From Acidimicrobiaceae bacterium (GTDB lineage Bacteria; Actinomycetota; Acidimicrobiia; Acidimicrobiales; RAAP-2): 64,000 nt of DNA. The notes below the pieces were generated by a model. That model was not told where the DNA came from, did not search any database, and saw nothing but the letters and a program-made list of their open reading frames with translations. Below, in pieces: positions 4,246 to 7,378 of the stretch. A program made the translations under genes and the position numbers. Position 1 is the first letter of the stretch. Every line of letters begins with the position of its first letter. The DNA lies in the NCBI GenBank assembly GCA_003142095.1, contig PLON01000073.1, positions 41,434 to 105,433 on the forward strand, written 5' to 3'.

Positions 4246-4474
4246 GGACCCCTCCGTCCCTCGTTGGCTCTGAGATGCCTACTGCCGGACCCGGATGCGT
4301 CCTCGACCTATCGCTCTCGCGATAAACCCGCAGTAAGGCGACCTCTACTTAATGAAAATAGACGTCGAATATATATCACACCTATAGACGTCGCGCTCGT
4401 GAACGTTTCCGTACTTGAGCATGTGCGCCGAGGAGTTGAAAACCAAGAGACGGACGTGAAGACTCGGGGTGAAC

Positions 4475-4495
4475 CGTGGGTGAGTCTCACCCACG
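4475..4495. promoter_or_regulatory. 21-bp perfect palindrome CGTGGGTGAG-T-CTCACCCACG
   Basis: 10-bp perfect arms around one base in the 750-bp non-coding gap. Confidence 0.5.
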
Positions 4496-4745
4496 ACGAA
4501 CGACACAGGCCGCTCTCTTCGCGACTGCGTGGGCGCACCGCGCGGCGCGCTCTAGTGAGGGCTGGGCGACGCGGTCGCCCTAGCCCCATTCGTCGTCGGT
4601 GCGCAGTAGTTGGCGTCCGTATAACAGATAACGGGCCCAACCTACTGACCAGTACGAGCGTCGCCTAGGGACACCTTTGACCCCAAAACGGCACCAAAAT
4701 CGACGCCGGTGTAAAAAATTTATCCCAAGACGCACCCGTATTGAC

Positions 4746-4760
4746 CAGGTACTATACCTG
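4746..4760. promoter_or_regulatory. Palindrome CAGGTA-CTA-TACCTG
   Basis: 6-bp arms, upstream of the putative Rpf promoter. Confidence 0.4.
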
Positions 4761-4812
4761 CGCCCTGTGGATAAATTGGCCGCCTAGGGCACAAAAAAAG
4801 GGCCTCCACGGT

Positions 4813-4818
4813 TAGGCT
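4813..4818 (+). promoter_or_regulatory. Putative -10 hexamer TAGGCT for the Rpf-like gene
   Basis: Matches the TANNNT class seen at leaderless starts in this window; would place the TSS near 4825 and give a leader of about 170 nt. Confidence 0.4.
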
Positions 4819-4824
4819 TTCATC

Positions 4825-4993
4825 CGGCAGTATCGACTGCTCCATATGTCGCCCCACAGAGTTGTGGAACCGGGTGACCAACCATTGTGCCCCTTGGTGG
4901 GGGGTCTACATATATCCCACCAAGTTCGGACGTACGCCAGCGAATTGTTTCGCTCGCTGCGGCCGTGGTGCAGAACTAAGGAGAAGAAAAGCT
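4825..4993 (+). ncRNA. Structured 5' leader of the Rpf-like gene; candidate c-di-AMP (ydaO-yuaA) riboswitch or other cis-RNA
   Basis: Hairpins CCACA/TGTGG (4854-4867), CTTGGTGGG/CCCACCAAG (4893-4924), AGCGAA/TTCGCT (4939-4954); GGAACCGGGTGACCAACC...CCCCTTGGTGGGG resembles the ydaO 5' half as I remember it; the 3' half is not a clear match. Confidence 0.35.
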
Positions 4994-5440
4994 GTGCAAA
5001 GAGTTATGTTCGCCTTGCTCGTGGCTTTAGCCATCCCTCTGGCCCTGCTCACCAGCCCGGCGCTGAACGCTCCGGCGGGCGCCGCCACGAAGCCGAGGCC
5101 TAAGCCCGCCGCTCAGGTCCGTCGACACGTCGTGAGCCTCATTGCCCTCGACGAGATCCACGCCCTGGTCGCCGACGCCCACTCTCGTGGCGTCGGCGTG
5201 GTTGGTCTGCGCGCCGAGTGGCAGCGCGTGGCGGTCTGCGAAGTGGCCGGCGACTGGTCGATGGTGGGCCCGAACTATTCGGGCATCGGATTCCAAAACG
5301 GCACCTGGAACGAGTACGGGGGCACCCGCTACGCCCCCCTGGCCGGGCGTGCCAGCGAAGATGCGCAAATTGTGGTCGGAATGCGCGTGACGCGGGGCTG
5401 GGTCCCTGATCAGTACGGGTGTGACCCCGGTGGCTGGTAG
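4994..5440 (+). CDS. Secreted resuscitation-promoting-factor-like (transglycosylase-like) protein
   Basis: GTG start with AAGGAG SD at 4978; signal peptide FALLVALAIPLALLTSPALNAPAGAA; C-terminal WQRVAVCEVAGDWSMVGPNYSGIGFQNGTWNEYGG resembles the Rpf catalytic fold motif. Confidence 0.7.
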   Translation: MQRVMFALLVALAIPLALLTSPALNAPAGAATKPRPKPAAQVRRHVVSLIALDEIHALVADAHSRGVGVVGLRAEWQRVAVCEVAGDWSMVGPNYSGIGFQNGTWNEYGGTRYAPLAGRASEDAQIVVGMRVTRGWVPDQYGCDPGGW

Positions 5441-5515: not shown

Positions 5516-7378
5516 GTGCGAGTTCCCCTGACGAAGTGTTTCGCCGCCCTAGCCCTCTCAGTTTTGGCGCTAGCGGCGAACGTCGGCGTTGCGGCGGCGA
5601 CCGCCCCCACCCTGGCCCCCACTGCAACCGGCTTCGATATCAGTTTCCCCCAGTGCGCGAGCCCGCTCCCGGTGTCCCCAGGTTTCGGGATAGTCGGGGT
5701 CAATAACGGCTCGCCCCTCACCATAAACAACTGCCTCGCGCGCGAACTCTCGTGGGCGAACGGCGCCACGAACACCGTCGCCGGCTTCTACGCCAATACC
5801 GGCAACGGCGGCCCGACCGGGGTGGGCTGGCCGAAGGGTCAGCAGAGTCCCGACGTCTGTGGGGACGCAAACTCGGTGCCCTGCTCGTATGACTACGGGT
5901 GGAACGCCGCACGCACGGCCTTCGCAAACGCCGTCAACGCCGAAAGCGTCGACGGCTCGGCGTCGCCCTCCACGGCCGCCATGACGGCGCCGTGGTGGAT
6001 GGACGTAGAGACCGGAAACGCCTGGGAGACCATCGAGAACGGGCGCCGCGCCGCGACTGAGGGGTACGACCTCGCCATGCTCGAAGGAATGGTCGCCTCG
6101 TTCACCAACATCGGCGTGAAGTCGCTGGGCATCTACTCCACAGCAAACATGTGGTCAGAGATCACCGGCGGATCGGGCTCAACTTTCGCGTCGATTCCCG
6201 TGTGGATCCCGGGAATCGCCACCCTCACGGCCGCCGAGGCGGCCTGTTCGTTGACGTCGTTCACTGGCGGACGAGTCGGCATGATTCAGTACCCCTCCCA
6301 GGGGTACGACGGCGACTACTTCTGTGGTCTCTTAAGTACCCCGGTGACAACGTCCGTCGCGGTGGGGGCCTCGGCGACCTTCAGCGATCAACTCGTGACC
6401 GCCAACAACGCCGGAGCCGTGACCTATACCCAAACAGCCGGCACGCCCGATCTCGTCGTGTCGCCGACGGGGCTCGTCACGACCAGTGGCGCGCTGGCGA
6501 CAGGAACCTACAGCGCGACTGGCACCACGGTTGACGCCGCTGGAAACACCGGTACCTTCTCGCTCAACCTCGACGTCGGCGTGTTAATCCAGAGTTCTGC
6601 CGTGACCGCAACGGTCAAAGTGAGTGGGTCCGCGGCCTTCACTCAGCAGGTCGCGGTGTCGGGCAGCGACGGCGCGGTGGCCTACGTGCAAGCAACCGAC
6701 ACGCCCGATCTCGTGGTGTCGCCGACGGGTGTCGTGACGACGAGTGGCGCGCTGGCGACAGGAACCTACAGCGCAACGGGAACCGAATCAGACCCCGCGG
6801 GCAACAAGGGCACCTTCAAATTGACCCTCACCGTGGGCGCCCTCGTCCAACGCGCGCCTACCGCGGCGACGGTCACCACGAGTGACTCGGCGACCTTCAG
6901 CCAGCAACTGGACGTCGGCGCCAATCTCGGGGCCATGACCTTCGTGCAGACGAGCGGCACTCCGAGCGTGCTTGTAAGTTCGTCGGGCCTCGTGACGACG
7001 AGTGGGAAGCTCGCCGTCGGGACATACCCAGTCGCAGGGACGGTCAGCGACGCCACGGGTGACATGGGTAAGTTCACCTTCACCGTGAGCGTCCATGCTC
7101 TGCCTCCCCCGCCACCGCCGTCTCCCTCGGCGACACGAGTCATCGGATACGTCGTGGCCGGTAGAACGGTCACCATCACGATCGACGGAGCAAACTTCTA
7201 CGGTCAACCCCACGTGACGAGCCACCCCGGCACTGTCGCCACGGTCCTCCGCGACCAAGGCGCGTCATTGGTCGTACGCGTCACGTCGCGCGCCCGCTCG
7301 CGTAACGGCGTCTTCACCTTCACGATCACGGCGCCCGACGGCGCCACGTGCCAGGTGCGCTACAACCAGCGAAAATAA
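5516..7378 (+). CDS. Secreted GH25-like/TIM-barrel protein with three tandem ~86-aa Ig-like repeats and a C-terminal IPT/TIG-like domain
   Basis: Signal peptide; GFDISFPQCASPLP ... WWMDVETGNAWE ... GIYSTANMW ... PVWIPG; repeats DLVVSPTGxVTTSGALATGTYSATGT; proline-rich linker. Confidence 0.65.
   Translation: MRVPLTKCFAALALSVLALAANVGVAAATAPTLAPTATGFDISFPQCASPLPVSPGFGIVGVNNGSPLTINNCLARELSWANGATNTVAGFYANTGNGGPTGVGWPKGQQSPDVCGDANSVPCSYDYGWNAARTAFANAVNAESVDGSASPSTAAMTAPWWMDVETGNAWETIENGRRAATEGYDLAMLEGMVASFTNIGVKSLGIYSTANMWSEITGGSGSTFASIPVWIPGIATLTAAEAACSLTSFTGGRVGMIQYPSQGYDGDYFCGLLSTPVTTSVAVGASATFSDQLVTANNAGAVTYTQTAGTPDLVVSPTGLVTTSGALATGTYSATGTTVDAAGNTGTFSLNLDVGVLIQSSAVTATVKVSGSAAFTQQVAVSGSDGAVAYVQATDTPDLVVSPTGVVTTSGALATGTYSATGTESDPAGNKGTFKLTLTVGALVQRAPTAATVTTSDSATFSQQLDVGANLGAMTFVQTSGTPSVLVSSSGLVTTSGKLAVGTYPVAGTVSDATGDMGKFTFTVSVHALPPPPPPSPSATRVIGYVVAGRTVTITIDGANFYGQPHVTSHPGTVATVLRDQGASLVVRVTSRARSRNGVFTFTITAPDGATCQVRYNQRK
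6370..7110 (+). repeat. Three tandem coding repeats (~258 bp period)
   Basis: acgcccgatctcgt(c/g)gtgtcgccgacggg ... agtggcgcgctggcgacaggaacctacagcgc at about 6443 and about 6701, near-identical DNA; third copy diverged. Confidence 0.8.

Follow-up and report, generated by a model that had tools for sequence, protein, structure and literature searches.

Rpf enzymes help dormant actinobacteria to resume growth and, when misregulated, can kill the cell. A gene for an Rpf-like enzyme lies in the window, the whole stretch of 64,000 nucleotides of an Acidimicrobiaceae genome analysed here, and the question raised by this locus is whether the leader that precedes the gene is a functional RNA and, if so, of which kind. 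Leader RNAs of rpf genes are known from two other actinobacterial settings, namely, the ydaO riboswitch, which senses c-di-AMP and controls rpfA in Streptomyces (PMC10117811), and the rpfB RNA switch of M. tuberculosis, which attenuates transcription through an intrinsic terminator, occurs in some pathogenic mycobacteria only and has no known ligand (Schwenk et al., 2018; PMC6009663).

The rpf-like gene, its promoter and its leader

The gene (4994..5440, + strand) has a GTG start in a conserved context and encodes a 148-aa Rpf-like secreted transglycosylase matching PF06737 (E 6.1e-13, 49.7 bits, cut-off 27). It is preceded by a Shine-Dalgarno sequence, AGGAG (4979..4983, +), which is invariant or nearly so in the leader alignment, and by a −10 promoter box, TAGGCT (4813..4818, +), the position of which is kept in homologues as TAGGCT, TAGAAT or TAAAAT. 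The predicted leader of about 170 nt begins some 7 bases after TAGGCT and ends at the GTG at 4994 (about 4825-4993). When relatives were searched at the DNA level with 4650-5440 as the query, the matches fell separately into the leader and the catalytic domain, with little in between (in G017, for instance, query bases 164-289 at 78% and 509-791 at 69%), and several of them began at query base 164, that is, at the −10 box. The DNA from 4813 onward, unlike the beginning of the coding sequence, is thus about 75%–79% conserved in several genomes of the same genus, and the onset of conservation at the −10 box argues against a transcription start close to 4994. The first-pass annotation had proposed that the Rpf-like gene has a structured leader and that this leader begins at the TAGGCT promoter, and this proposal was borne out by the PF06737 match, the conservation from 4813 and the covariation described below. 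Directly 3′ of the rpf gene, 5516-7378 (+) encodes a secreted protein of 620 aa that contains three Ig-like repeat segments and has a weak Big_13 match, possibly a partner protein at the cell surface.

Upstream of the promoter lies a further conserved site, TGACCAGG on the + strand and CCTGGTCA on the − strand (4742..4749, −), which reads CCTGRTCA in homologues. Most homologues of groups A and D (see below), and also several of group C, carry this motif or a close variant at −59 to −68 relative to the −10 box; it is inverted relative to most homologues in the window, at −71, and in L069, L077 and L084, at −64 to −70. Judged from this fixed spacing of about 66 bp to the rpf −10 box in either orientation, CCTGRTCA is a probable transcription factor site, bound by an activator or a repressor, and suggests a second, transcriptional layer of rpf control.

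A common architecture among homologous leaders

Folded alone, the window leader is mildly unusual in its stability (z −1.94, 6/200 shuffles), and the single-sequence folding energies of the leaders in general are weakly better than those of shuffles; the case for a leader RNA therefore rests on comparison. With the protein as the query, orthologous genes were retrieved from some 50 genomes of the genus; their leaders form the groups A (window-like), B, C and D, with a small group E (L077, L084) in addition. These leaders have a common architecture that comprises P1, P2 and a long-range helix, P4, which encloses P3 and P3b and reaches to within a few bases of the Shine-Dalgarno sequence.

All elements lie on the + strand. 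P1 (4826..4841, GGCAG-TATCGA-CTGCT) is a hairpin with which the transcript is predicted to begin; its GCAG/CTGC stem and 6-nt loop are nearly invariant, and it occupies this place in groups A, C and D. According to the alignments, it is followed by a conserved unpaired linker, J1/2 (4842..4847), which is UUCGUY in homologues and CCATAT in the window. P2 (4848..4878) is a hairpin with a 3′ bulge (4868-4872) that separates P2a (4848-4853/4873-4878) from P2b (4854-4858/4863-4867) and shows compensatory changes; in alignment A2, which holds 28 full leaders, 89.6% and 92.8% of the cells of P2a and P2b, respectively, are paired. A second linker conserved in the alignment, J2/4 (4879..4884, CAACCA, also given as CAACCAA), leads into the 5′ strand of P4 (4885..4891, TTGTGCC), the partner of which (4967..4973, GGTGCAG) stops 5 nt short of the Shine-Dalgarno sequence. 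In the window, UUGUGCC (4885-4891) thus pairs with GGUGCAG (4967-4973), wobble pairs included, in a register that was taken from inspection, since the 3′ end of the window is misaligned in A2. The helix covaries among homologues, with compensatory changes in 5 of its 6 pairs, its strands being ACCGCGC/GCGCGGU in L062, ACCACGC/GCGUGGU in L071 and GCGUUCC/GGAACGC in L052. Within P4, the long stem P3 (4893..4924; 4893-4902/4915-4924) has 10 pairs, seven of them with compensatory changes, and 88.5% of its cells are paired; it contains the perfect 9-bp stem pointed out in the first-pass annotation, CTTGGTGGG (4893-4901) with CCCACCAAG (4916-4924), which is exact in the window, is extended by one G-U pair and covaries. 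P3b (4939..4954, AGCGAA-TTGT-TTCGCT) is a variable hairpin with 78.4% of cells paired and compensatory changes in four of five pairs.

Several other pairings were considered and rejected. A local hairpin, CCCC-UUGGU-GGGG, shows much weaker covariation than P3 (68.8% paired), and a pseudoknot to ACCAA is apparently compensated in a single case seen by eye (L075) and does not hold in others. Sequestration of the Shine-Dalgarno sequence by the 5′ strand of P3, CCCCUUGGU with ACCAAGGAG, fits the window and L075 and is broken in L065, L071 and L061, whereas an extension of P2, UUCGAU/AUUGA, is present in group D and absent from group A.

Covariation supports the structure

In alignment A1, which consists of the 24 leaders of the A and D core, 90.3% of the cells of P1, P2 and P3 are paired, as against 33%–49% when slid, and 12 pairs carry compensatory changes compared with a mean of 6.1 in shuffles that ignore relatedness (0/500). 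RNAalifold, run unaided on an alignment other than A2, recovered the same three helices. For the whole structure in A2, 87.8% of the cells are paired (30%–42% when slid; 0/500 shuffles), 21 of the 37 pairs have compensatory changes (shuffled mean 12.3, 0/500) and the number of compensatory cells reaches 74, compared with 25.9 in shuffles (0/500). P4 by itself is 86.8% paired in A2 (77.0% shuffled) and counts 23 doubly changed cells where shuffles average 6.4, in a tally to which the window does not properly contribute, its row being off by a few columns at the 3′ end.

Because the shuffles ignore relatedness and P4 had been spotted by inspecting the same sequences, a count over nearest-neighbour pairs was added. 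Across 14 disjoint pairs, 20 compensatory double changes keep the pairing, compared with 1-8 in six slid controls, and two compensatory changes, in P2 between L044 and L054 and in P4 between L039 and L038, separate sequences that are 8% apart at unpaired sites. In an unsupervised covariation ranking of all columns, the top place among those able to pair went to a pair of P4; this ranking is dominated by clade structure, which is why the nearest-neighbour test was used. Many pairs are G-U on the + strand (for example, columns 82/103 and 84/101) and would be A-C mismatches on the opposite strand, so that the functional RNA is that of the + strand, the rpf transcript. On this comparative evidence, the leader is a real conserved RNA with a structure shown by covariation.

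Distribution of the leader

A covariance model built from groups A and D (R2), with group C held out, recovered the leaders of group C over their full length at the homologous place with E-values of 1e-4 to 1e-12, scores that are raised somewhat by the Shine-Dalgarno and start codon columns included in the model. These leaders have P1 and the bulged P2 as in the modelled groups. Group C (L012, L013, L016, L073, L076, L078-L083) also has an extra hairpin after P3, ACGAACC...UUCGUUACGC, the near invariance of which suggests a sequence-specific role. Group B (L007, L059, L068, L070, L072, L005, L056) is more diverged, with R2 matches ranging from E 1e-5 (L005) down to not significant (L056, L068). 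Its members keep a bulged P2-like hairpin and have a different P1 stem, UCACG/CGUGA; we regard their leader as another version of the same one, either further diverged or replaced.

A second model, R1, gave matches in 35 of the 172 genomes of the family at E≤0.001, all in the genus of the window. Apart from two matches of about 28 bits that lie inside ORFs and were judged to be due to chance, one in a carboxyltransferase-like ORF (G126:C35) and one in a hydrolase-like ORF (G168:C71), the R1 matches are confident, occur once per genome (twice in G172) and, as far as checked, stand upstream of an rpf-like gene. Wider samples, comprising 298 genomes from the order, 296 from the class and 347 from the phylum, yielded no convincing element in scans with stricter filters that would miss strongly diverged relatives. 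Among weak matches outside the genus or at other loci, those in G657 and G746 (22-23 bits) lie within or beside ORFs and that in G398 has no rpf context by sequence, and all three were judged to be due to chance. As modelled from sequence, the element thus appears confined to the genus and to the region 5′ of rpf.

The leader and c-di-AMP

Genes of the rpf type are under the control of ydaO riboswitches in Streptomyces and Mycobacterium (PMC10117811; PMC6009663), and the leader has some local sequence likeness to ydaO; the first-pass annotation had considered a divergent member of this class and had named a search with the ydaO family, RF00379, as the check. This search (Rfam 15) gave no match in 4300-5400 of the window even at E≤10, and none was obtained in 150 genomes of the family, with B. 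subtilis and C. glutamicum positive as controls; nor did any Rfam family match 13 homologous loci at E≤5. The stretch taken to resemble the 5′ conserved half of ydaO, GGAACCGGGTGACCAACC, proved to be the 3′ side of P2 together with the linker that follows it, which is conserved in the leader RNA and is not part of RF00379. Nothing like the 3′ conserved half (CCGAAnCCGUCAGCUAACC) was seen by eye in the window or in the leader alignments. Furthermore, the diadenylate cyclase domain, PF02457, was detected in 0/61 genomes of the genus and in 11 of 14 control genomes; the 61 genomes are mostly drafts, and since the domain is missing from all of them, its absence is not due to incompleteness. The genus thus seems, from its gene content, to do without c-di-AMP, in which case a sensor of this molecule would have nothing to sense, and we consider a divergent ydaO riboswitch highly improbable. 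The combination that was obtained, covariation among homologous leaders together with the lack of an RF00379 match, is the one that the same annotation had associated with a new class.

The leader appears to be new as an RNA: none of the 4227 families of Rfam 15 matched the window leader or the 13 homologous loci, and no description of such an rpf leader was found in a search of open-licence papers. The kind to which it belongs, structured leaders of genes for cell-wall hydrolases, is already known. Like ydaO/yuaA, which precedes rpfA and further genes for cell-wall hydrolases in Streptomyces and Mycobacterium, the leader is a structured RNA of an Rpf-type gene in Actinomycetota, but it has the architecture P1-P2-P4(P3,P3b), shows no match to RF00379 in sequence or structure, lacks a terminator and occurs in a genus without a detected diadenylate cyclase. 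With the M. tuberculosis rpfB switch it shares the nature of a lineage-restricted RNA in an rpf 5′ UTR, and it differs in its lineage, its Shine-Dalgarno-proximal helix and the lack of a terminator, a distinction drawn from the description of that switch. As far as tested, the leader therefore has its gene context in common with both systems and its structure with neither. It also resembles the orphan structured leaders known from comparative genomics (Weinberg et al., 2010; PMC2864571) in its covariation and its link to a single gene family, and is set apart from them by the lack of an Rfam 15 match.

Level of control and alternative explanations

A terminator scan detected no intrinsic terminator in the leader. 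As the Shine-Dalgarno sequence is conserved and adjoined by P4, initiation of translation is the likelier level of control, and we consider it reasonably probable that the leader is a conserved, structured 5′-UTR RNA absent from Rfam that acts in cis on this step. In the mechanism that we propose, the P4 domain beside the Shine-Dalgarno sequence would open or close, some factor would recognize the conserved unpaired J1/2 (UUCGUY), the P2 bulge and J2/4 (CAACCAA) and thereby tune P4, and the state of P4 would set the output of a potentially self-lethal cell-wall hydrolase; the trigger might be a small molecule, a protein or temperature. A more specific version, which we advance tentatively, is that the leader represents a genus-restricted new class of riboswitch that gates rpf translation in response to a metabolite other than c-di-AMP, as an independently evolved replacement of ydaO control.

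Other explanations account for parts of these observations. The role of the structured 5′ UTR could be to protect the mRNA or to position it, with no signal being sensed; P1 would guard against RNases and the fold would keep the Shine-Dalgarno sequence clear. That P1 opens the predicted transcript in groups A, C and D is in line with this explanation, as are the single-stranded Shine-Dalgarno sequence of the consensus fold and the outcome of a search for a conserved alternative pairing that would mask it, which found none among the leaders; predicted accessibility and pairing partners of the Shine-Dalgarno sequence vary from sequence to sequence. However, the conserved unpaired segments and the long-range P4 exceed the needs of a stability hairpin and the leader is restricted to one gene, so that we hold a purely stabilizing role to be somewhat doubtful. 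The same bulge and linkers, which adjoin helices, could form the binding site of a regulatory protein, through autoregulation or an RNA-binding protein of the cell-wall stress response, and regulation of this kind, independent of a ligand, would give the same picture; with no candidate protein at hand, and with direct autoregulation unlikely for an exported protein such as Rpf, this explanation seems improbable to us. That the region is a conserved DNA operator or promoter, or encodes a leader peptide, is barely credible: CCTGRTCA demonstrates that a genuinely conserved DNA motif exists upstream, yet an operator does not explain the compensatory base-pair changes, and insertions and deletions of 1-2 nt, spread over the whole leader alignment, leave no conserved reading frame and rule out a leader peptide.

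The structured leader described here would be a third, unrelated rpf leader, found where c-di-AMP synthesis appears to be absent, and would suggest that RNA control of rpf genes has originated repeatedly. The leader also supplies a concrete RNA with which a resuscitation signal could be screened for in uncultured acidimicrobia.
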